A stretch of DNA of 44,701 bases from the NCBI GenBank assembly GCA_020051775.1, contig JAGVQJ010000061.1, forward strand, positions 1 through 44,701, in the 5' to 3' direction. The number at the start of each line of letters is the position of its first letter. Within the stretch, counting starts at the first letter, position 1. Made by a program: the position numbers and the translations under genes. Below are positions 24,218 through 44,701 of the stretch, in pieces. The stretch is from Calditrichota bacterium. GTDB lineage: Bacteria; Electryoneota; B3-LCP. Under the pieces are notes generated by a model. The model was not told the origin of the DNA and did no database searches. It saw only the letters and a program-made list of their open reading frames with translations.

Positions 24218-26044
24218 CTATTTCAGCAACACCATTTTACCGGAGGCGGTGTTCTGTCCGGCAGTGAGACGGTAGAGGTAAACACCAGAGGGGAGGTTGC
24301 TTCCATCGAAGGTCACATCATGCGCACCGGCCTCCTGCCAACCACCAACCAGCGTTGTCACCAACCTCCCGGCGGTATCCCAAATCGCCAACCTAATGTG
24401 GCTTGGAGCTTGAAGCTTGAAGCTGATAGCTGTCGTGGGATTGAAGGGATTGGGGGAAACCACCAGTGCCGGACTCGAAGGGATAAAAGCGGTCTGTGAC
24501 CACTCACCGTCAAACGATTCGCCGGTATTTGCCCAATCGCCGATCAGAGGGCCGCTGCCGGTAGTCAGCTTGGTATAAATCAGAGTATCCGAACTCCAGA
24601 TAGTATTGGGGTAAATCCCGGCATAGCCTATGTATTTATACTCGCCGGGTGGAGCGCTTCCAGGCACATTCTGATGTCGCAACCACCCTGTAGTGCCGGG
24701 CGGGAGACTTACAGTAAAGGGACCCAGGATTGGACCGGTGATGGTGCTGTCTGGCAGAATCTGTTTCGTCCAGAGGGTCACATTGGTGTTGATTGAATCT
24801 TCATTTGAGACAAAGGCGTAAAAGCTGAAACTGCCGCCGCTGGCGGGGATGAGGATGGGGAGGGTGAAGGGGATGAGGTCTAAAGAAATGTTTGCAGGAA
24901 AAAAGTCTGGTTCGGTTTTGATGAGATAAACCTGATTGTCAGCGCCAAAGGAATCCGTGTATCCGGCAACAATATATCCACAGTCCTGGGTTTGTCGTAC
25001 GTCATACCCATAATCGTGACCAGCACCTCCGAAAGTGCTCTGCCACACAAGATTGCCGGCCGTATCTATTTTAAGGAGATAAACATCCGGTATTGCAGTT
25101 ATCGAGGCTTCAGCATAACCCGCAACTATATATCCGCCATCCAGGGTTTGTTGTACACTGCGGCCGAAGTCATTGTTGATCCCACCATAACTGTTCTGCC
25201 AAATGGGATGACCCATGGAATCGGTTTTGATGACGTATACATCATAATGATTCTCTCCCGTATCCCCTGCAATGATATACCCTCCATCAGTAGTTTGCTG
25301 CACACTGAAACCATATTCGTTAAAAACTGAGCCGAAAGTGCGCTGCCAGAGGAGATTTCCATGATAATCCGTTTTAATCATTAAGATGTCGGAACCACCA
25401 GCGCCGGGAACCATGATGAATCCGGTAATGATGTACCCACCATCTAATGTTTGACACACGTACCGTCCCACCTCTTCACTATTATCACCACCGTAACCCT
25501 GTTGCCAAACCAAAGCTCCGACAGCATTAGTTTTCACCAGGTAGGCATCCATACTCGGCCCGAACATTCCTGTTTCGCCGGTGACAATATAACCGCCGTC
25601 CGTCGTTTGTTGCACGCAATATCCACATTCGAATGACGGCGTACCGCCAAAATATGTCTGCCAAATCTGATTTCCAAAGCCATCGGTTTTGACCAGGTAC
25701 AACTCGCCCGAAGGCATAAACGAATGGGTTTTTCCGGCGATGATGTAGCCGCCATCGCTGGTTTGTTGTACGCTATAACCCCAGTCTGTAAGATCCCCGC
25801 CGTAGGTTTGTTGCCAGACCTGATTGCCATGAACATCGGTCTTGATCAGATAAACCTGGTAATAACTACTGTATTCAATTGTCGTACCGGCAATGATATA
25901 CCCTCCATCTGCGGTTTGTTGCACACAATAGCCATAATCGTTGGAACGCGCTCCGTATGTTCTCGTCCAGAGCGTATCCGGCGGTTGGGCGGCAGCGAGG
26001 AGGGGGAGTAAAGCAGTGAGTATAAAAGCGATGTAGCTCTTCAT
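24218..26044 (-). CDS. Secreted seven-repeat beta-propeller protein with type IX sorting domain (paralog 1)
   Basis: From the ATG at 26044 (after GGAGGTT) the protein has 608 residues, with a signal peptide (MKSYIAFILTALLPLLAAAQ). Seven repeats of about 50 residues follow, each with a core like VQQTTDGGYIIAGDT, then YLIKTD..GN..WQ..YGG, to about residue 370. This is the pattern of predicted seven-bladed propellers. An Ig-like middle part with PASGGSFSFYAFVSNED leads to a C-terminal sorting domain (NPFNPTTAISFKLQ, then NLPSGVYLYRL and SGKMVLLK). It is likely exported by type IX secretion and surface-attached or released. Function unknown. It is in tandem with, and probably cotranscribed after, its paralog. 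Confidence 0.85.
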   Translation of the reverse strand: MKSYIAFILTALLPLLAAAQPPDTLWTRTYGARSNDYGYCVQQTADGGYIIAGTTIEYSSYYQVYLIKTDVHGNQVWQQTYGGDLTDWGYSVQQTSDGGYIIAGKTHSFMPSGELYLVKTDGFGNQIWQTYFGGTPSFECGYCVQQTTDGGYIVTGETGMFGPSMDAYLVKTNAVGALVWQQGYGGDNSEEVGRYVCQTLDGGYIITGFIMVPGAGGSDILMIKTDYHGNLLWQRTFGSVFNEYGFSVQQTTDGGYIIAGDTGENHYDVYVIKTDSMGHPIWQNSYGGINNDFGRSVQQTLDGGYIVAGYAEASITAIPDVYLLKIDTAGNLVWQSTFGGAGHDYGYDVRQTQDCGYIVAGYTDSFGADNQVYLIKTEPDFFPANISLDLIPFTLPILIPASGGSFSFYAFVSNEDSINTNVTLWTKQILPDSTITGPILGPFTVSLPPGTTGWLRHQNVPGSAPPGEYKYIGYAGIYPNTIWSSDTLIYTKLTTGSGPLIGDWANTGESFDGEWSQTAFIPSSPALVVSPNPFNPTTAISFKLQAPSHIRLAIWDTAGRLVTTLVGGWQEAGAHDVTFDGSNLPSGVYLYRLTAGQNTASGKMVLLK

Positions 26045-26078
26045 AATAACCTCCATTGATCCCATTTTGATATTTCCT

Positions 26079-27899
26079 CTATTTCAGCAGCACCATCTTT
26101 CCCGAGGCGGTGTTCTGTCCGGTAGCGAGACGGTAGAGGTAAACACCAGAGGGGAGGTTGCTTCCATCGAAGGTCACCTCATGCGCCCCCGCCTCCCGCC
26201 AGCCATCCACCAGGGTGGTCACAAGCCTCCCGGCAGTATCCCAAATCGCCAACCTGATGTGGCTTGGAGCTTGAAGCTTGAAGCTGATGGCTGTCGTGGG
26301 ATTGAAGGGATTGGGATGGGAAGGATGAAGTATAATAGAGGAAGGATAAATCTCTTCGGTCGAAGTATTTTCCCCAAAGAAGGGATCGCCTGTATTGGCC
26401 CAATCACCAATCAGTGGGCCGTCACCGGTGGTTAATTTGGTATAGGTAATGGTATCTGTACTCCAAACGGCATTAGGGTATACGCCCGCGTAGCCGATAT
26501 ACTTATACTCCCCGGGAGGGGCACTTCCGGGCACGTTTTGATTGCGGAACCAGCATCTGGTGCCTGTCGTGAGGTTCACTGTATACGGCCCCAGGATGGC
26601 GGGCGTCAGAGTGCCATTCGGCAGAATCTGTCGAGTCCATAGAGCCACATTGGCGTTGGCGGTGTCCTCATTGGTAGCGAAAGCATAGAAACTGAAACTG
26701 CCACCGCTGGCGGGGATTTGGATGGGGAGGATAAAAGGAACTACGCTCAACGTTATTGTGGAAGGATTAAATAGATCCGGTTCTGTTTTTATCAGGTACA
26801 CTTGGTTACCGTTGCCAAATGAAGCTGTTCTACCTGTAATAACAAATCCATTTTCCGTAGTTTGTTGAACGCAATAGCCTACATCACTACTCCAACCACC
26901 GATTGTTTCGTGCCAAATTTCATTACCATTTTCATCAATTTTAATAAGAATTACATCATAATTGCCTGCGCCGAAAGAATTCGTAAATCCAGCAGCGATA
27001 TAACCGCCATCTTCAGTCTGCCGAATGCTGCGGCCTTCGTCCCAGTCGCCATAGTTAAATATGCGTTCCCACATCAAGTTGCCTAGATCATCAGTTTTGA
27101 TTAAATAAATGTCAGTGTAACTGTATTTTCCTGCTATAATATATCCTCCATCCGTTGTTTGCTGAACACTGTATCCCATATCATGTCCGGTTCCTCCATA
27201 AGTGTTTTGCCAAATTAAATTTCCGAGACTGTCAATCTTAATTAGATAAACATCATAATCTCCTGCCCCGTAGGACATGGTTGCTCCGGCAATTATATAG
27301 CCGCCATCCGCAGTTTGTTGGCCATAATGACCATAATCCTCATTAGTGCCTCCGTAAGTGTGAGCCCATGTCTGAATGCCGGATGCGTCCGTTTTAATTA
27401 ACCAGACGTCTCCCAAACCACCAACAAGACAACGTGCGAACAAAATATACCCACCGTTGTTGGTCTGCTGAGCACAATATCCTTGATCTGTAATACTAGG
27501 CCATCCGAAAGTCTGCTGCCAGATCAAGTTACCGAGACTATCAGTTTTTATCAGCAGTGCGTCACCCGCGCCACCATTAGCATCCCCGGCGAGTATATAC
27601 CCGCCATCAGAAGTTTGTTGAACCGATTTGGCATAATCTCGTAGGTTTCCTCCAAAGGTCTGCTGCCAGATCTGGTTTCCATTAACATCTGTTTTGACGA
27701 GATAGACATCACCATCCCCATAGTATGATGAATATCCCATGCCGGCGACGATATATCCCCCATCAGCGGTCTGCTGTACACAGTAACCGATATCATCAAC
27801 ATTACCTCCAAATGTCCTCGTCCATAGCGTATCTGGCGCTTGGGCGGTGGCAGCGAACGCTAGCAACAGCGTGATGAACAGAGCAATTGACGTCTTCAT
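26079..27899 (-). CDS. Secreted seven-repeat beta-propeller protein with type IX sorting domain (paralog 2)
   Basis: The 606-residue protein starts at the ATG at 27899, after AGGAGA. The frame is open to 27956, but the extra 19 codons overlap the leader. It has a signal peptide ending AFAATAQ, seven DGGYI-type repeats (variants NNGGYIL and ENGFVIT), the same Ig-like linker and a sorting domain nearly identical to its neighbour's. The propeller halves have diverged much more than the last 70 residues. It has its own promoter at 27960-27988 and lies 34 bases upstream of paralog 1, so both are probably one operon. Confidence 0.85.
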   Translation of the reverse strand: MKTSIALFITLLLAFAATAQAPDTLWTRTFGGNVDDIGYCVQQTADGGYIVAGMGYSSYYGDGDVYLVKTDVNGNQIWQQTFGGNLRDYAKSVQQTSDGGYILAGDANGGAGDALLIKTDSLGNLIWQQTFGWPSITDQGYCAQQTNNGGYILFARCLVGGLGDVWLIKTDASGIQTWAHTYGGTNEDYGHYGQQTADGGYIIAGATMSYGAGDYDVYLIKIDSLGNLIWQNTYGGTGHDMGYSVQQTTDGGYIIAGKYSYTDIYLIKTDDLGNLMWERIFNYGDWDEGRSIRQTEDGGYIAAGFTNSFGAGNYDVILIKIDENGNEIWHETIGGWSSDVGYCVQQTTENGFVITGRTASFGNGNQVYLIKTEPDLFNPSTITLSVVPFILPIQIPASGGSFSFYAFATNEDTANANVALWTRQILPNGTLTPAILGPYTVNLTTGTRCWFRNQNVPGSAPPGEYKYIGYAGVYPNAVWSTDTITYTKLTTGDGPLIGDWANTGDPFFGENTSTEEIYPSSIILHPSHPNPFNPTTAISFKLQAPSHIRLAIWDTAGRLVTTLVDGWREAGAHEVTFDGSNLPSGVYLYRLATGQNTASGKMVLLK

Positions 27900-27959
27900 T
27901 TCCGGGTCTCCTGCGGTTGTTAAGGATTTAGTAGGATGGAGTATTGTCAAAATCACTCT

Positions 27960-35551: not shown

Positions 35552-36565
35552 ATGTTGAAAACTCTACGATTTTTTGCTATCGGTGTGTTCGCTATTGGTC
35601 TTCTTATCGGTCTATATCTATGGCCGACGGGAGATGTCGTCAGCGAACCCGGAAATTCACCACTGTACACCGCATCCTTGAATAGCACGACCAACCAACT
35701 CGGTGGTTCGGGCACTCCGACTGATCCGATCAGGAACAGCGACGGCAAGGGTGGCGGAGAAGGTAATTTCATCACGTGTGAAACTACCTGCGGTCCCACT
35801 TGCAATCAAACCACATGCGGTCAGACTTGTGTGGCCACATGTGCTGCAACTTGTGCTAATACTTGCGGGCAGACCACCTGCAATTCGACTTGCGTAGCGA
35901 CCTGCGAAGCAACTTGCGCCAACACCTGCTCCCAGCCTACGTGCGAATCCACCTGCGTCATCACCTGCTCCTTCACCTGTGAAGAGCCTATTACGCTGGT
36001 TGATTTCACCGCAGCCCCGCAGGGTGAGAATATCGCCCTGAATTGGACGACCGGCTCAGAAGTTGACAACTACTGCTTCCGTCTGTGGCGTTCCACCAAT
36101 CCTGATGGCGAGTTCACCGATGTCTCGGGTGAAATCCCCGCTCAGGCTCAAGGACCGGGAATGACCGCTTACAGCTACGTGGATCACAACGTAGTTCCTG
36201 GGACAACCTACTTCTACAAAATCCAGGACATTTCACTGTACGGCTACCAGACGATGCATCAGGCTGTAGCCAGCGCCACTGTGGCCGCCGGCTATGTACT
36301 GGCGCAGAATTATCCCAATCCTTTCAATCCGGAAACCGTCATCCGCTTCGTTCTGCCTTCGAGCGCCCAGACCCGTCTGGCCGTCTACGACATGAGTGGT
36401 CGTTTGGTTCGGACGCTGGTGAACGGAACCGTTGACGCCGGTCCCCACCAAGTTTCCTGGAATGCCACGGATGAAGCTGGCCAGATTCTGCCCAGCGGGA
36501 TGTATATTTATCGTCTCTCCGCCGGTGCAATCAAAACTAGTGGTAAGATGGTATTTGTCAAGTAA
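35552..36565 (+). CDS. Secreted protein with regular Thr-Cys repeat and type IX sorting domain
   Basis: 337 residues after a strong GGGAGG site. A signal anchor or signal peptide (residues 1-26, FFAIGVFAIGLLIGLYLW) is followed by a spacer. Residues 76-143 hold 17 cysteines, each preceded by Thr and spaced four residues apart (xxTC), with three five-residue steps. A 21-residue higher repeat is visible (QTTC..TCVATC..TCANTC). Then come a fibronectin-III-like domain (about 145-250) and a sorting domain (NYPNPFNPETVIRF to SGKMVFVK). The varied Thr and Cys codons suggest selection on the protein. The function is unknown; it could be a disulfide-stacked or modified repeat displayed outside the cell. 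Confidence 0.85.
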   Translation: MLKTLRFFAIGVFAIGLLIGLYLWPTGDVVSEPGNSPLYTASLNSTTNQLGGSGTPTDPIRNSDGKGGGEGNFITCETTCGPTCNQTTCGQTCVATCAATCANTCGQTTCNSTCVATCEATCANTCSQPTCESTCVITCSFTCEEPITLVDFTAAPQGENIALNWTTGSEVDNYCFRLWRSTNPDGEFTDVSGEIPAQAQGPGMTAYSYVDHNVVPGTTYFYKIQDISLYGYQTMHQAVASATVAAGYVLAQNYPNPFNPETVIRFVLPSSAQTRLAVYDMSGRLVRTLVNGTVDAGPHQVSWNATDEAGQILPSGMYIYRLSAGAIKTSGKMVFVK

Positions 36566-36603
36566 GCACACCGTTGCAATTTTCCAAGGCCTAAGTCTTC
36601 CCG

Positions 36604-36648
36604 AAAGACCATTATCCGGTTGCTTCGAGCCCGGATAATGGTCTTTTT
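36604..36648 (+). terminator. Strong terminator between the Cys-rich and C25 genes
   Basis: Perfect 16-base stem (AAAGACCATTATCCGG) with an 11-base loop and a T-run to 36648, only 17 bases before the ATG of the C25 peptidase. Confidence 0.92.
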
Positions 36649-36665: not shown

Positions 36666-39600
36666 ATGGGAATAACTTCTGAGAAATACTGGATTTCAAC
36701 TTTGATTTTTCCAGTGCTGTCTCTCTTAATGACCCTCCCTGCGCTGATCCCCACCAGATCTGCGATCTGTGCTGCTCCGGCAGGAGTGACCTTGATTTCC
36801 TGCGATCAAAGCGGCGCGGTAATTGAAGTCAATCTCCCCGAACTCAAGTTCTCCACATTGCAGCGCCAGGATCGTAGCTTCACAGATCTCGACGCACCGG
36901 GGTGGCCTCGCCTGAGTGAGGAAGGCAAACCGGCTTTACCGTCTAATGCGGTTTTATTGGCGATTCCTCCCGGCGCTAAAGCATCCCTGGCGGTTGAAGC
37001 CATTGACGTCTATACCCTGTCAGCTCCCGATCCGTTGCCCGCTCCAACTGTCAGTGTGAATCTCCCCGGCACTCAAGTAGATAACCGGTTCCTTCCGGAT
37101 CCAGCGGTTTATACCGCTTCTACCTCCTGGCCGCCATCATGGGCGTCCTTGAGCGAGCCGGTGCAAATGCGGACCTATTGGGCGATCCCGGTTCGCCTCA
37201 CTCCCGTGCGCGCCACGCCGAGTCAAGGCCAAGTCCAGGTGGCTAAGAAGCTGCGGTTGCGAATCACCTTCCAGGGCGGACGCACCGGCCACTTCATCAC
37301 CGATCCTTATGGCGAACCATTGGCCCGAGCCACTCTGCTCAATTTCCAACAAGCTCGTTCCTGGCAGGAAAAATCGGTTTCCTCTCTGAAAACTCTCGAC
37401 TCTCAATCCTATGGCAAATATAAAATTTACGTCAATAACGACGGCTTGCGCATCATCACCCACGACGACTTGGTCGCCGCCGGTATCTCTCCGGATACTC
37501 TGGCAACCTTAAATCCAGCTACGCTTAAACTACAAGTCAAAGCGCGACAGGGACAAATCGATACGTTGATCCAGGTTCCGGCTTGGGTGGAGGGAGAGTG
37601 GGATGGCCGCTTCGATCCCCAGGACTACATTTTATTTTTCGGCAATTTCGCGCGCGGCCAATATACCTATGAAAATCCCTTCGTTCGCGCCAACACCTAC
37701 TGGCTGGATTGGGGTGGATCGCCAGGAATGCGCTTGCAGACTAAAACCGCAACTCCAAGCACCGCGGTGCCGGTTGCCAAATTTCGAACGCACACCCGCG
37801 TCGAGTACGATACCCTTTACGAAAAGTTCGGATTTGCGAACGAAATCGGCGCTGACACCATTGACCATTGGTTGTGGCACCGTTTGGATTCACAGTTCAA
37901 TCCCAACCTGACCTTCCTCCAATGGATGCCCGGTCACCTGGTGCTGCCAGGGTACAATTATTCACTGACAGTATCTGTGCGCGGCTACACCTTGGATTCG
38001 CTGATCTATCCCGATCACCCCTTCTCAGTTACCTGGAATGACCATCTGGCTATTGACGATACGATGGATCAGCAGAATCCTCGTATCGTCACCGCAGTAA
38101 TCCCCCCAGAATGGGTTTCTGCGCCTGAGAATGCTCCCGCGGAAATCACGGTGCACGCACCGCCGGTCCCTGGCATGATCTTGGGCAATTCCTTCTATTT
38201 GGATTGGATTCGCGTAGACTACTGGCGCAATTTATCTGTAATCGGCGACACCTTGTTGTTCCAGAAACCGCAGGATATGGCGCCCTTGGGTGAATTCCGT
38301 TATCAATTGACAGGACTTCAAGAGCAGGATACTTCGGACATCGAAGTATGGAATCTGACGAGAAATTTACGTTTGCGGGGATTCACGCTGAATGGGGGTA
38401 CTCTCACATTCCAGGATTCGTCATTAACGGACAGCACGGTGTACTACCTGGCGGCTCGAAACCGCTGGTTGCCACCCGACAGCATCGTTCGTGACGAACC
38501 CAGTGACTGGAGGAGCGTCGCTCATCATTACGACTATCTCATCATCACTTACGAGGATTTCTATGCGGCTATGAGTCCCTTGGTGGATCACTACGCCTCC
38601 CAGGGGATGGACGTGGCTTTAATTAAACTCGGAGACGTCTACGATGAATTCAATTACGGCCTGAAAAGTCCGCAGGCCATTTATGAATTCATACAATATG
38701 CCTTCTTTAATTATCCCGGAGGTCCTCCGGCGTATTGTCTGTTAGTCGGCGACGCTTCCTGGGATTACAAAAATTATGAGTATTTACCATATATAGACTA
38801 TTGCCCGACTTTCCATTTCTGGACGAGGAAATGGGGTGAGACCGCCTCCGACAACTTTTTCGTGGCCGTCTCGGGCAATGACGTAGTCCCTGATCTTTAT
38901 GTGGGACGAATGCCGGTTAATACTGTTGATGAACTTGATTTGATGATACAGAAGAGCCTGACCTACGCCCAGGCTCCCCAGGGGAATTGGCGCAGCACCG
39001 TTATTTTCTCCAACGGCGCCATTGATTCCGCCAGCGCTGTGGAATTCGACGGTTACGTGGATATGTGGGTGGAGAATTATTTTCCGCCCTGGTATGAGCC
39101 AACCCTGCTTTATAAAAACCCCTCGGCGGGCCACGAGCAATACCAAAGCACCAATGAAGAGCTGATACGCGCCATCAATCAAGGCGCCATGTGCGTGAAT
39201 TATCAGGGTCATGCCGGCAATCAGATCTGGGAGACCATGACGTTGGAAGGTATCGCTTCGCTCACCAATGGTATCAAACTTCCCTTCGTAATGGGGTATT
39301 CCTGCTTTACGGGAATATTCTCCAATACGCGCGGCTTTGGTGAAGCATTCATACTCCAGCCTGGCGGCGGGGCAGTGGCGTATTTCTCCAACGGCGCGGT
39401 AGGTTATAGCGGCACCAACGCCATCATGGACAGTTGTATGCTCCGACAACTTTTCATGCCTCCGGATACCACTCAACCCGTCACCTTCGGACTGGCCATG
39501 ACACAGGCCAAGGTCAGTTACTTTGCACATCTATTCTATCAGCAGTCGGTAGTGGAGACCTTTGTGCTGTTGGGTGATCCCGCCTGCCAGTCGGTTTACC

Positions 39601-40307
39601 AGACGCCCAATCCCGCCGATACCCTGGACGATGAGGCGCCGCAGATCCACATTGCCTTCAACGGTGAAGGCGGCCCCGGATTTCGAGACGGCGATTTCGT
39701 CAATAATCCGGTGCAATTCACTTGCATGGTATCCGACTGTACAACCATAGATACCACCTCGCTGTACCTGAAACTAACGCATCTGGCGGATGCCGAAGGA
39801 TCCCCGCTGACAGATTCACTTTCCTGGAGTTGGTGGCCAAATACGCCGTATCCGCCGGGATTCAGTTCTACCTCGCCCGACACCCAGCATTTCAATATGA
39901 CTTACACCGATAGCCTTGCCGAAGGCGAATGGCAGTTCATTGTCCGCGTCTCTGATTTCTTCAACAACGGGCCAGCCTCGGATACCGTGGTCTTCAACCT
40001 CAGCCAGGGAACCCTTGCATTGGAAAATGCCTTGAACTGGCCGAATCCTTTTCAGGATCGCACCAGTTTCGCTTTCGACTTGCTCTTTTCCCATGATGCG
40101 GAAGTGACCATTAAGATCTTCACGGTGGCTGGACGGTTGGTGCGCATTCTGCAAGATCAAGCGCAACCGGGATACAACCTGGTGGAGTGGGATGGCCGCG
40201 ACAGTCGCGGCGACCCGCTCTCCAATGGAGTGTATCTGTACAAAATCATTGCGCACACCGCCGACCAGCAAGCAGAAAAGATCGGTAAACTGGCCAAGTT
40301 GAAATAG
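36666..40307 (+). CDS. C25 (gingipain-type) cysteine peptidase, possible PorU-like sortase
   Basis: 1213 residues with a signal peptide (residues 1-37), a long N-terminal propeptide-like beta-rich region (to about 600), a C25 catalytic domain (about 615-980) and a C-terminal sorting domain (NWPNPFQDRTSFAF to SNGVYLYKI). The catalytic His849 (NYQGHAGNQIWE) and Cys880 (MGYSCFTGIF) are both present, so it should be active. Size and layout fit PorU, the sortase of type IX secretion, but secreted C25 proteases share it. It may process the sorting-domain proteins of this window. Its promoter is not visible; read-through of the terminator ahead of it is possible. Confidence 0.85.
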   Translation: MGITSEKYWISTLIFPVLSLLMTLPALIPTRSAICAAPAGVTLISCDQSGAVIEVNLPELKFSTLQRQDRSFTDLDAPGWPRLSEEGKPALPSNAVLLAIPPGAKASLAVEAIDVYTLSAPDPLPAPTVSVNLPGTQVDNRFLPDPAVYTASTSWPPSWASLSEPVQMRTYWAIPVRLTPVRATPSQGQVQVAKKLRLRITFQGGRTGHFITDPYGEPLARATLLNFQQARSWQEKSVSSLKTLDSQSYGKYKIYVNNDGLRIITHDDLVAAGISPDTLATLNPATLKLQVKARQGQIDTLIQVPAWVEGEWDGRFDPQDYILFFGNFARGQYTYENPFVRANTYWLDWGGSPGMRLQTKTATPSTAVPVAKFRTHTRVEYDTLYEKFGFANEIGADTIDHWLWHRLDSQFNPNLTFLQWMPGHLVLPGYNYSLTVSVRGYTLDSLIYPDHPFSVTWNDHLAIDDTMDQQNPRIVTAVIPPEWVSAPENAPAEITVHAPPVPGMILGNSFYLDWIRVDYWRNLSVIGDTLLFQKPQDMAPLGEFRYQLTGLQEQDTSDIEVWNLTRNLRLRGFTLNGGTLTFQDSSLTDSTVYYLAARNRWLPPDSIVRDEPSDWRSVAHHYDYLIITYEDFYAAMSPLVDHYASQGMDVALIKLGDVYDEFNYGLKSPQAIYEFIQYAFFNYPGGPPAYCLLVGDASWDYKNYEYLPYIDYCPTFHFWTRKWGETASDNFFVAVSGNDVVPDLYVGRMPVNTVDELDLMIQKSLTYAQAPQGNWRSTVIFSNGAIDSASAVEFDGYVDMWVENYFPPWYEPTLLYKNPSAGHEQYQSTNEELIRAINQGAMCVNYQGHAGNQIWETMTLEGIASLTNGIKLPFVMGYSCFTGIFSNTRGFGEAFILQPGGGAVAYFSNGAVGYSGTNAIMDSCMLRQLFMPPDTTQPVTFGLAMTQAKVSYFAHLFYQQSVVETFVLLGDPACQSVYQTPNPADTLDDEAPQIHIAFNGEGGPGFRDGDFVNNPVQFTCMVSDCTTIDTTSLYLKLTHLADAEGSPLTDSLSWSWWPNTPYPPGFSSTSPDTQHFNMTYTDSLAEGEWQFIVRVSDFFNNGPASDTVVFNLSQGTLALENALNWPNPFQDRTSFAFDLLFSHDAEVTIKIFTVAGRLVRILQDQAQPGYNLVEWDGRDSRGDPLSNGVYLYKIIAHTADQQAEKIGKLAKLK

Positions 40308-40662: not shown

Positions 40663-42846
40663 ATGCGCCAGAAACGTCAGCTTAGAGCCATTACGGCGCG
40701 CCTTGCTATTATGGCAGGGACGCTCTGCTGCCTGACACTCAGTGGTTCAGGCTCGACAGCCGGTGGGCGAGTTGCCGGCGATCCCTCCTCGTACCAGGAA
40801 ATGTCGGATCTCTATTTCTTGGATCGTAGTCTGGAATTTGCCCGGGAACTGCTCCTGAAGGAGGAGTACCTGCGCGAACTATACGATTGCACGGGGCAGG
40901 AACTTAAAGCTCGCCGTTCAGAAGGCTTGGATCCATCGTTACTTGAAAGCCCGCTATGGGAACTCCAGACACCCCAGGTCCAACAAGACGATACCACGCA
41001 GACGCGGCCTCAACGCTTTAAACTCTGGACAGATTACGAGAATCAGGAATTTCAACGTCGTCTGGGATTGATTCGGCAGGTGCGGTTACAGTTGATTAAG
41101 GCCGGATCCGAAGACCAAAACCAGCGAATGTTCCAGCGTGAATTGAAACGGGCCATACGCTATTATGGCAAAGAAGATTGGGATCTTGCGCGCCTGTTAT
41201 TCGATCATCTATTGGAAGATTATCATTATCAACAGATAGATGATATCCTCTACTATCAAGCACAAACCTGCATTCAACTGCAATTGCTGGATCGCGCTTT
41301 GGACGCTTTGAATCATTTGCTCACAGCTTGCCCTCAATCCTCCTACCGAGCCAAAGCTTACGATCAAGCCACCGCCATACTGGAAGCGTTCGGGAGCGGA
41401 TATCAAATCCGCAAAATCTATAGCAGGTATATTGAAGATGGAGCACCCGGAGATCCCGAAAAAATGGGGGGCGTTTACGTGCGCACGGCGCGCGCCGAGA
41501 TCACGCTGGGACATTACGAGCCGGCAGTGGAAATGCTGACTCAAGTTCACGCAAAAAGTCAGTACTACCTAGCTTCACAGTATCTCCTGGCTGATTGCTA
41601 CACGGCGTTGGAAAATTGGCCCCAGGCCGTGAACGTGCTGTCAGCCATGGCCACCGTCGAGCAGCAGGCCATGCCTTACGAGCGTTGGAGAATGTTAAAG
41701 GACGAAGCCGCCATCAAGTTGGCGTTTATCTATTACCAATGGGGGGATTTTACCAAATCCGCGGAGTTATTCAGCCAATTAAAATCCAACTCCCCCTTCT
41801 TTGACCGGGTGATGATGGGCAAAGCCTGGATTGCCTTCCAACTGGAAGATTATGAAGGCGCTATCTCCAAGACTGAGGAGATGTTGAAAATTTATCCCCT
41901 TTCGACGGAGATCTATGAAGCTAACTCGCTGGCGGGATACTGTTGCGAGCAATTAGGACAGGACGCGGCTGCAACGGCTCACTTTCTCCAAGTGCTGGAC
42001 GCCGGCGCGGGTCGTACGGATCTGCAGAGTTTCCTGGAAGAGCGGCGCCGCATCAATGAATCAATGGCCGATCTGCAAGCGCTGGAAGAGGATGTGTTCA
42101 GTTTGGGCGACCCGCAACTGTTTTCGGATTATCGCCGCGCCCGCAACCAGCTTTGGATCTGTCAGCAGCGGATTGCCCTGGCCGAATTGTTGCAGGTCAA
42201 CTCACAAATGCGCGCCCTGGTGGAAGAACGCATCGCGCTGGACAATTTGATCAAAGATCATACCCAACTTGAAGAGCAGATAACTCAACAAGGGGATCAC
42301 AGCCTGATCGCGCAGTTTCTCGCCATTGACGAGCGTATCTGGCTAAGTATGGATCACTTGAAACGCCTGGGACAAGAGCAAGTCAAATCCACGCCTCTTT
42401 ATTATAAAGAAGCTCAGGTGGGTTATCTGAATGCACGCGCCGACAGCCTGGCCGTTCGCTTAGAAGCCGAAATTAATCAATTATCGCAGACCGCCGCAGC
42501 TACGAATGATTTACAGGCTGCCGCTTTATTAGGAAACAATCTGGATGAATATTTGCGCTTGAGTCTGCGCATGGATCGTCTGGATCAGACCCTTGATCAA
42601 ACCGATCTCAACCTGTCGCTGGCGGAAAACTCCCGCCGCCCGGTGCTTCATACTCGCGTAGATCGGTGGTCGGATTTCAGTTTCAACCGCTATGCTATGG
42701 GCGGCATGAATCTGGAGCAGTTGGATCGAAAATATGAACGATTGCGGCAAGTGGAAGATTTTATCTCCACCCTGGATGAAATGATCACGCAGAAAAATAC
42801 GACCCCCTCGCAGGATCAGATTGAGTTGCAGAATTCGCAGAAATAA
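40663..42846 (+). CDS. Exported TPR-repeat protein
   Basis: 727 residues with an N-terminal signal peptide (LAIMAGTLCCLTLSGSGSTA). The middle (about 155-465) is a series of tetratricopeptide-like helical pairs, for example LLEDYHYQQIDDILYYQAQT, LDRALDALNHLLTACPQSSY and AWIAFQLEDYEGAISKTEEM. The last 250 residues are predicted coiled coil (LEEQITQQGDHSLIAQFLAI and following). Such proteins often act as periplasmic scaffolds. It forms an operon with the next TPR gene, 14 bases downstream, under the promoter at 40450-40478. Confidence 0.8.
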   Translation: MRQKRQLRAITARLAIMAGTLCCLTLSGSGSTAGGRVAGDPSSYQEMSDLYFLDRSLEFARELLLKEEYLRELYDCTGQELKARRSEGLDPSLLESPLWELQTPQVQQDDTTQTRPQRFKLWTDYENQEFQRRLGLIRQVRLQLIKAGSEDQNQRMFQRELKRAIRYYGKEDWDLARLLFDHLLEDYHYQQIDDILYYQAQTCIQLQLLDRALDALNHLLTACPQSSYRAKAYDQATAILEAFGSGYQIRKIYSRYIEDGAPGDPEKMGGVYVRTARAEITLGHYEPAVEMLTQVHAKSQYYLASQYLLADCYTALENWPQAVNVLSAMATVEQQAMPYERWRMLKDEAAIKLAFIYYQWGDFTKSAELFSQLKSNSPFFDRVMMGKAWIAFQLEDYEGAISKTEEMLKIYPLSTEIYEANSLAGYCCEQLGQDAAATAHFLQVLDAGAGRTDLQSFLEERRRINESMADLQALEEDVFSLGDPQLFSDYRRARNQLWICQQRIALAELLQVNSQMRALVEERIALDNLIKDHTQLEEQITQQGDHSLIAQFLAIDERIWLSMDHLKRLGQEQVKSTPLYYKEAQVGYLNARADSLAVRLEAEINQLSQTAAATNDLQAAALLGNNLDEYLRLSLRMDRLDQTLDQTDLNLSLAENSRRPVLHTRVDRWSDFSFNRYAMGGMNLEQLDRKYERLRQVEDFISTLDEMITQKNTTPSQDQIELQNSQK

Positions 42847-42860
42847 CTGTAATTTTAAGC

Positions 42861-44701
42861 ATGAGTGAGCCGGTGAGATACCATTTGATATCAAGGATTC
42901 AGGAAGCCGCCAAGAGTCCCCCGTTACGGACCGGTTTCCCAATCCCGACAGCGGCAGTCTGGTGTGCTGTTTTCCTGCTGGCTTGTGCTCTTTCCGCAAA
43001 CGCCGGCCGACCTAGGGAAGCGCTACCCGCTGATCTGATGGAGCAATGGCAGATGATCAAAACCGACAGCCCGGATACCGGCATGGTCGCCGGTCTCATG
43101 GAAGAGGGCGAAAGGATCATTCTGCGTTTGGAGGAGTTGAACGACCTGCGCCGCGATCCCCAAAATCCACCCGGTGAAGGATTGAATCAGCGCATTGATC
43201 TCCTACAAGATCGTTTTAAAGAATTGCTGCGCAAAATCGAGCTGGCCCGCGTGTCGCACTTGCCCGACAGCGAATTGGGAGCGTTACGGACTCGTTATGA
43301 ACAGGAACGAGTTCGGTTGCAAACCGAGACCCGTGCCTTGGAAGACACGATCATTGCTCGCGGCGAGAATTTTTTAGCGACTTATAAAGAGAACGTCAAC
43401 TTCACACACTATATCAGCAAACAGGAAATGATAGTGGATTTCCTTTATCGTTTGGCCGAAATTTACTATCAACGAGGCGAAGATCAGTTCTTCTCCAGCA
43501 ATGATGTATCCGCTTTCAAACCCGCCCTGGAAAAATATCAGCGCATCATAGATGAATTTCCGGCTTCGGAGTATGTGGATGACGCGCTGTACAATATCGC
43601 TTATGTAAAAATTAGTTCTCAGACCCCTGATGATCAGCAAGAGGCCCTGAAGTTATACCGCACTCTGATTGAGAAATACGCGGGATCGCCCTTCGTTCCG
43701 GAAGCCTACTGGCGCGTGGGCGAATATTACTTCTATCAGGATCCTCCGCGGATGGACGATGCCTGGCCGTGTTATCAGGCGTTGACAGGCTATCCCGATA
43801 CGCATTGGTATGCGCGGGGTTTGTACAAAATGGGGTGGTGCCGGTTTCGGCAATCAGATTATACCGGGGCGGTGGAATATTTCACTCAAACCGTGGAAGC
43901 CAGCTTGGACAGCGCCTCCGGTCAGGATATGATCTATACGAGTATGCTGGACGAAGCGCTGGAGTACATCAGCGTCTGTTTCGCTCAGGATCCGTCGGAA
44001 TGGAGCGGAGCGGGCGTAGCGAGCGCCGTAGCCTTTGTGCAGACTGATTCTTTAGGGCAGGGACACCGCCGCAGTTATGGCGGGCAAATTCTGGAGTATT
44101 TGGGGGACATTTACAAACTTCAGATCGGTAAGTATGTTCAGGCCAATGAGGCTTACCAAGCTTATCTGGCATTATATCCCCTATCGCCGAAAGCTCCATT
44201 GATTCGGGAGAAGGTGGTAAACACCTACGCCGTCAATCTGCGTGACTTCAGCAGAGCCTACCAGGAAAAGGATTCGCTCTACCAGCTATATCGAGCGGGC
44301 ACGGAGTGGGCCCAGGCGAATCCTGAGGCGCTGGTGCGGGCTGAGACCGATTCCATTGTGGAAAAATATTATTTCCAGAATATTGGTGAAACCATTGGGC
44401 GCTCCCTGAAGCAGGATCCAGGATCTTCAGCGTCTGACTCCGAATCCCAATTGCAGCAGTCCGTGCAGTTATCCCGCAACTACCTGGAAACTTTCCCCAC
44501 AGGGCCTAATGCCTATATCGTGAATTTCAATCTCGCCGTCTTGCTGGAAAATCACCTCGGCGATGACGAGGGAGCCTACGAAGAGTTCATGAAGGTGTCG
44601 CGCGACTATGCCGACGACAGCCATCGCAAAGAGTCGGCGGTGAATGCGGCCATCATCGCTCAGAAAATGATCAATGAATCACGAACTGGAACGGCAGCGC
44701 C
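42861..44701 (+). CDS. Exported TPR-repeat protein, 3' end beyond window (partial)
   Basis: An open frame of 613 codons from ATG 42861 to the window end, with no stop. An N-terminal hydrophobic segment (AVWCAVFLLACALSANAG, about residues 33-50) marks export. A coiled-coil part (about 85-160) is followed by TPR or Sel1-like units such as FKPALEKYQRIIDEFPASEY, EALKLYRTLIEKYAGSPFVP and YKMGWCRFRQSDYTGAVEYF, the YbgF/BamD style. It could take part in an outer-membrane assembly or surface complex, but nothing in the sequence fixes this. It is cotranscribed with the TPR gene before it. Confidence 0.82.
   Translation, partial: MSEPVRYHLISRIQEAAKSPPLRTGFPIPTAAVWCAVFLLACALSANAGRPREALPADLMEQWQMIKTDSPDTGMVAGLMEEGERIILRLEELNDLRRDPQNPPGEGLNQRIDLLQDRFKELLRKIELARVSHLPDSELGALRTRYEQERVRLQTETRALEDTIIARGENFLATYKENVNFTHYISKQEMIVDFLYRLAEIYYQRGEDQFFSSNDVSAFKPALEKYQRIIDEFPASEYVDDALYNIAYVKISSQTPDDQQEALKLYRTLIEKYAGSPFVPEAYWRVGEYYFYQDPPRMDDAWPCYQALTGYPDTHWYARGLYKMGWCRFRQSDYTGAVEYFTQTVEASLDSASGQDMIYTSMLDEALEYISVCFAQDPSEWSGAGVASAVAFVQTDSLGQGHRRSYGGQILEYLGDIYKLQIGKYVQANEAYQAYLALYPLSPKAPLIREKVVNTYAVNLRDFSRAYQEKDSLYQLYRAGTEWAQANPEALVRAETDSIVEKYYFQNIGETIGRSLKQDPGSSASDSESQLQQSVQLSRNYLETFPTGPNAYIVNFNLAVLLENHLGDDEGAYEEFMKVSRDYADDSHRKESAVNAAIIAQKMINESRTGTAA

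Follow-up and report, generated by a model that had tools for sequence, protein, structure and literature searches.

What an exported protein might do with a threonine-cysteine pair at every fourth or fifth residue throughout a 69-residue stretch is the question raised by a gene (hereafter the TC-array gene) in the window, by which the whole analysed stretch of 44,701 nucleotides is meant. The explanation preferred here, with a rough probability of just under one half (about 0.48), is that the array is an exported, surface-displayed and disulfide-cross-linked repeat module acting as a rigid spacer or scaffold. The coordinates of the gene, of the parts of its protein and of its neighbours are collected in Table 1.

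Table 1. Features of the TC-array locus, in window positions.
Feature	Position	Strand	Remarks
TC-array protein, 337 aa, open reading frame including stop codon	35552..36565	+	Full-length orthologues in four other genera
Signal-peptide-like N-terminus, residues 1-31	35552..35644	+	V-x-S|E invariant in five genera (alignment); judged by eye
SPLF box, residues 36-43 (SPLYTASL)	35657..35680	+	Found in all complete members, four lineages
TC array, residues 75-143, 17 Thr-Cys pairs, steps 4 and 5, 21-residue super-repeat	35774..35980	+	
Fn3-like domain, about residues 145-245	35984..36286	+	Beta-rich, pLDDT about 77-88; Foldseek Fn3 matches; similar stretches in other cargo of the genome
Type IX type A sorting domain (FlgD-like), residues 254-334	36311..36553	+	TIGR04183, PF13860 and PF18962 over cut-off
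Intrinsic terminator hairpin, then T run	36603..36647	+	Conserved in five genera
Neighbour: C25 peptidase, propeptide and sorting domain, PorU-like	36666..40307	+	Adjoins the TC gene in five genera
Neighbour: TPR protein	40663..42846	+	Order conserved in three other genera
Neighbour: TPR protein, weak PorW/SprE resemblance	42861..44701	+	Runs off the window

The TC-array protein and the conservation of its array

The open reading frame proposed in a sequence-only reading of this locus was confirmed at 337 residues. Its C-terminus scored 38.3 bits against TIGR04183 (cut-off 23) and 27.7 bits against PF18962 (cut-off 27), which places the protein above the curated sorting-domain cut-off by which type IX cargo is recognised; display outside the cell, which had been proposed from the signal peptide and the sorting domain together, is very likely given the TIGR04183 score and a signal peptide recognised by eye. 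The Fn3-like middle and the tail are 34-40% identical to other cargo proteins of the same genome. Ordinary type IX cargo of the host has the same C-terminal modules (Fn3-like domain and FlgD-like tail) as the TC-array protein but lacks the array, the profile of which matches only the TC locus in the genome. When the array itself was searched against Pfam and NCBIfam, no model exceeded its cut-off, in agreement with the earlier remark that no named family has this pattern. The sorting-domain part gave at least 150 matches in the 4.07 Mb host genome, which amounts to a large type IX-like cargo set. On the reverse strand of the window, at 24218-27956, two adjoining proteins of 615 and 625 residues resemble each other at the start, end in the same sorting domain and are possibly a tandem duplication.

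The array contains 17 cysteines, and each of them is preceded by threonine. The count of 17 pairs and the rule of threonine before cysteine had both been noticed from the sequence and both stood, whereas the uniform four-residue step claimed at the same time did not: the Cys-to-Cys steps run 4,4,5,4,4,4,4,5,4,4,4,4,5,4,4,4, with 13 steps of four residues and three of five, and it is this order that yields the 21-residue super-repeat (4+4+4+4+5). The super-repeat, likewise proposed beforehand, was recovered outside the Thr-Cys pairs, where lag-21 matches number 10 of 24 in the window protein, a value reached by none of 20,000 shuffles, and it was also found in four orthologues with p values of 0.0001 to 0.009. 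Nine occurrences of three in-frame TC units in a row were counted in the window, every one of them within the TC gene, and none in 100 shuffles; Tandem Repeats Finder reported only short 12-bp arrays with 76-83% matches in the window.

Of the five other genera in the host family, four were found to have full-length orthologues. Across the resulting five genera (window and four orthologues) the length of the array and all 16 steps are identical, and all 17 threonines and all 17 cysteines are invariant, compared with 5 of 16 and 7 of 19 of the positions in between. Codon use in the gene is mixed (Thr ACC 9, ACT 7, ACG 2, ACA 2; Cys TGC 12, TGT 5), and 16-26 of the 35-37 shared Thr and Cys codons differ between pairs of orthologues, for which dN is 0.12-0.16 and dS is saturated in all ten comparisons but one, where it is 1.9. 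The mixed codon counts and the saturated dS bear out the earlier statement that synonymous codons vary and that the repeat is kept at the level of the protein. Other cysteines in the mature protein of the orthologues number 0-2 and lie at non-conserved places. One of the relatives also has a second, partial TC-array paralogue (L282:3-782, G003:C179) with 14 TC pairs, Fn3-like and sorting domains, which is cut by the start of its contig.

The SPLF box and relatives in other phyla

A collection of 84,980 species genomes was scanned for (TCxx)4TC, a search that gives a lower bound for the distribution. The majority of the matches listed were near-exact repeats or microsatellites at the DNA level. 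Arrays that are in frame, vary in their spacers and belong to plausible exported proteins were identified in at least the Bacillota genome THP_Bin_8, two Clostridia-type Bacillota, one Coriobacteriia and one Theionarchaea genome; a search for the repeat, as suggested in the sequence-only reading, has brought out further protein-level TC arrays in other phyla. The THP_Bin_8 protein (L045) has 42 TC pairs up to the end of its contig, and a second THP-class genome (G622) encodes, at L313:6168-8582, an exported protein of 804 residues with 78 Thr-Cys pairs, an SPMF box and a PD40 beta-propeller; in both THP-class genomes the TC gene is preceded by a related gene whose product has DUF4350 and ABC-auxiliary-like domains. 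In the Theionarchaea genome (G062), eight family loci on eight contigs (L265-L272) encode small exported proteins in which an [ST]PL[FY]xxRM box is combined with a Cys-rich tail containing TC pairs. The smaller Theionarchaea members have a few TC pairs only, and the arrays of the larger relatives comprise 17-78 pairs. Several relatives are metagenome bins, in which single contigs may be contaminants.

The archaeal search was positive in one of 115 genomes, the Theionarchaea genome named above, and negative in the 114 others searched of its phylum. With the window array profile, 5 of 386 genomes were matched, all of the window's own family, a count in which the composition correction of HMMER may hide Cys-rich relatives, and weak matches were obtained in the order of the Clostridia-type member. 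No relative was returned by tblastn of phages and plasmids, and none was confirmed in profile searches of viral contigs; no description of TC-array proteins was found in the literature. Three virus contigs (L152, L176, L232) have open reading frames with CY[NDQ]TC or C[KN][ND]TC repeats, for example YQTCYNTCYNTCYDTC, which look like a separate type of cysteine repeat.

All members with a complete N-terminus, from four lineages, have the box [ST]P[LM][FY]xx[SR][LMV] (the SPLF box) soon after the signal peptide. This count includes five orthologues of the window family, two Clostridia-type, two THP-class and eight archaeal members; the Coriobacteriia member and the partial paralogue in G003, both with a cut N-terminus, were left out of it. 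No Pfam or NCBIfam model covers the box. In other long open reading frames the four-residue core of the box occurs at 3.5e-5 per residue, or 0.0014 per 40 residues, and the chance of its arising independently in four lineages would be near 4e-12, a figure that serves as a guide only, the motif having been noticed afterwards. The family was delimited by a box after the signal peptide and by an in-frame array with steps mostly of 4, also of 5 or 6, and with varied codons and spacers, and both were found in the protein of the window. The plan of box plus array is carried on different C-terminal parts, namely a type IX tail, SLH, CWB2, a PD40 propeller or, in the archaeal members, none. Box and array together point to one family, inherited or transferred, rather than to four inventions and, judged by sequence, the TC-array proteins of bacteria and of at least one archaeal genome are an uncatalogued family, which is easy to find by the N-terminal box common to its members. 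It is tentatively suggested, as a possibility short of even odds, that these proteins form a cross-domain class of exported cysteine-ladder modules mounted on lineage-specific C-terminal parts; their fold or chemistry, whether the ladder is one of disulfides, of metal or of thiols and sulfur, would then be new, and the SPLF box would be a signal for maturation or docking common to the class.

Fold, neighbourhood and competing explanations

Steps between cysteines are of 4 or 6 residues only in THP_Bin_8, almost only of 4 or 6 in the Clostridia-type arrays and of 4, 5 and 6 elsewhere; if the chain were extended, steps of 4 and 6 would place the cysteines on one face. Glycine occupies the first spacer position in 14 of 14 Clostridia-type units and proline is present in 16 of 53 archaeal units, which disfavours a helix across the family. 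Structure prediction, proposed as a check in the sequence-only reading, was carried out using AlphaFold and gave two models of low confidence that contradict each other, so that the fold is not settled by them: with the whole protein and the full alignment the array was modelled as beta strands (pLDDT about 40-50), and with the array alone as a helical hairpin (block pLDDT 56-79, mean 67; 46 to 67 over the five models). Foldseek matched the whole-protein model mainly to PorU and to Fn3- or Ig-like structures, and found no usable PDB match for the helical model of the array alone. The window array profile had no match in the PDB. The Clostridia-type array with 6-residue steps had as its best PDB match 1ezg, an antifreeze protein of a beetle (E = 7e-4), but the composition bias of this match, 42 bits, exceeds its score; 1ezg is a beta-helix with a 12-residue repeat, in each coil of which a disulfide joins Cys 2 to Cys 8 (PMC8038014). 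Taken together, the steps of 4 and 6, the analogy to the 1ezg type and the glycine and proline that speak against a helix favour, with moderate confidence, an extended module stapled by disulfides.

In such a module, the signal peptide would take the protein across the inner membrane and the sorting domain would take it across the outer membrane via the type IX route. Outside the cell, the SPLF box would be close to the N-terminus of the mature protein, and an Fn3-like stalk would bear the 69-residue array, in which cysteines at fixed steps would meet partners in neighbouring coils, strands or subunits of a solenoid-like or hairpin fold. The disulfides would staple the array into a rigid, protease-resistant spacer or surface lattice with a structural role. 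The invariance of all 17 pairs and 16 steps in five genera, at a dS saturated in nine of ten pairs, argues for a module of this kind, as do the surface or extracellular C-terminal parts of the relatives (SLH, CWB2, PD40 propeller), and a five-residue step at every fifth cysteine is what one would expect if each coil or hairpin of the module has the same length. The odd number of 17 cysteines, with 0-2 unconserved extra ones, counts against a purely intramolecular set of disulfides, since at least one thiol would be free or intermolecular in some orthologues. Further points against disulfides are that no VKOR was found in four TC carriers and that the lineages of several relatives are usually anaerobic, a condition in which disulfides are harder to make. 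The haem-copper oxidase subunit COX1 is present in the host genome and absent from one TC carrier (G004), and the array and the oxidase are therefore not strictly found together.

The main rival to a disulfide-stapled module, and a serious one although its probability is low, is a metal-thiolate array. The cysteines would then not be oxidised, and soft metals such as Cu(I) or Zn(II) would be bound by them so as to be stored, detoxified or captured at the cell surface, much as by the CxxxC helices of copper storage proteins. In the Csp proteins CxxxC is the Cu(I)-binding motif, there are 18-19 cysteines per monomer and Csp1 is exported (PMC5171941); an odd number of cysteines is accordingly no obstacle to a metal-thiolate array. 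All array cysteines are invariant, and the helical hairpin predicted for the array alone would give each helix a CxxxC stripe as in those proteins. However, that model has no counterpart in the PDB, helices are disfavoured by the threonine in every unit and by the Gly/Pro spacers of the relatives, no Csp or metallothionein family matched over cut-off, and no metal-handling gene adjoins the TC gene in the neighbourhoods examined.

The next gene downstream of the TC gene encodes a C25 peptidase that is closest to the type IX sortase PorU, with 314 bits against a model cut-off of 420. The order TC-C25-TPR-TPR is found in the window and in three other genera (G003, G004 and G005) and TC-C25 in a fourth (G002), and in the sixth genus (G001) C25-TPR-TPR is kept with no TC gene upstream of C25. 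Between the TC and C25 genes a strong terminator hairpin is present in all five genera, with stem changes that preserve pairing; one arm of the stem, the 13 bases GACCATTATCCGG, is unchanged or differs by a single base in three genera despite saturated synonymous sites, and the hairpin is possibly more than a terminator. A TC-C25 operon was considered and is weakened by this terminator and by the arrangement in G001, which make the link between the two genes positional rather than that of a simple operon. The same two observations, together with the different neighbourhoods of TC arrays in other phyla, make it unlikely that the TC protein serves the PorU-like peptidase or the type IX pathway as partner, substrate or sensor, with the array only as its ectodomain, even though the two genes directly adjoin each other in five genera and there is a precedent in the cargo-type signalling protein PorA, a sorting-domain protein that influences type IX gene expression (PMC7712824).

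A little less probable again is an interface for thiol or sulfur chemistry, in which a dense surface of reactive cysteines would bind sulfide minerals, elemental sulfur or polysulfides, or would buffer redox at the cell surface. The density of cysteines, their display at the surface, the usually anoxic settings of several relatives' lineages and the VKOR result in the four carriers would suit such an interface, but no sequence feature is specific to it and the host of the window has a haem-copper oxidase.

Modification of the Thr-Cys pairs by a maturation enzyme, through thioethers or in another RiPP-type manner, had been raised in the sequence-only reading and is now very improbable. The regularity of the pairs and a short shared box before the array, readable as a recognition site, are in its favour; against it, the arrays lie within large Sec-type exported multi-domain proteins, and the position of the box after the signal peptide makes the role of a cytosolic leader awkward. 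The look for radical SAM genes near the TC gene that had been suggested gave no radical-SAM-like motif in the open reading frames around it in five genomes, which speaks against a RiPP cluster with maturation genes adjacent to the TC gene, and at the loci of the relatives it yielded only a MiaB-like methylthiotransferase and, in one Bacillota genome, one radical SAM open reading frame about 4 kb downstream of the TC gene. A functionless DNA-level or microsatellite expansion can be set aside with near certainty, for codons vary in this gene, and spacing, threonines and cysteines are invariant in five genera while synonymous sites are saturated; microsatellites do account for the majority of (TCxx)5 matches in public genomes.

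Comparison with known systems

A strict Thr-Cys rhythm and the same box in distant bacteria and in an archaeal genome, missing from Pfam and NCBIfam, point to a means of making cysteine-dense surface material in prokaryotes that has gone unrecognised. Should its chemistry be that of a disulfide ladder, the array would rank as a very compact repeat scaffold of natural origin; a metal or sulfur ladder would instead be of relevance to extracellular metal or sulfur handling.

Among known systems, the hyperactive antifreeze protein of the beetle Tenebrio (TmAFP, 1ezg) is likewise an exported Thr-Cys-rich repeat protein, and shares a 6-residue Cys step with the Clostridia-type arrays. It differs in its 12-residue TCTxSxNCxxAx repeat with ice-binding TxT ranks (PMC8038014), as the window array runs 4/4/4/4/5 and has no TCT motif. 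Neither P0001 nor profile A4 gave an antifreeze match, and ice binding is not claimed. The copper storage proteins Csp1 and Csp3 resemble the array in their many cysteines, including CxxxC, and Csp1 in being exported, but they are four-helix bundles, to which the Thr, Gly and Pro of the TC units are ill-suited; the array had no match to them in Pfam, and the helical hairpin that would recall them was modelled at low confidence. The cysteine-rich CxxxC repeat C_tripleX (PF02363) has its cysteines at 4-residue steps, as in the window array, which scored 12.6 bits against a gathering cut-off of 22.9; to our knowledge, C_tripleX has no threonine rule, no SPLF box and no sorting domain. Keratin-associated proteins are animal proteins built of a pentapeptide with CC pairs, and in both respects differ from the TC array, but as a lead only they offer CCQPT-type repeats, CxPTC-like units and a structural role that depends on disulfide cross-links.
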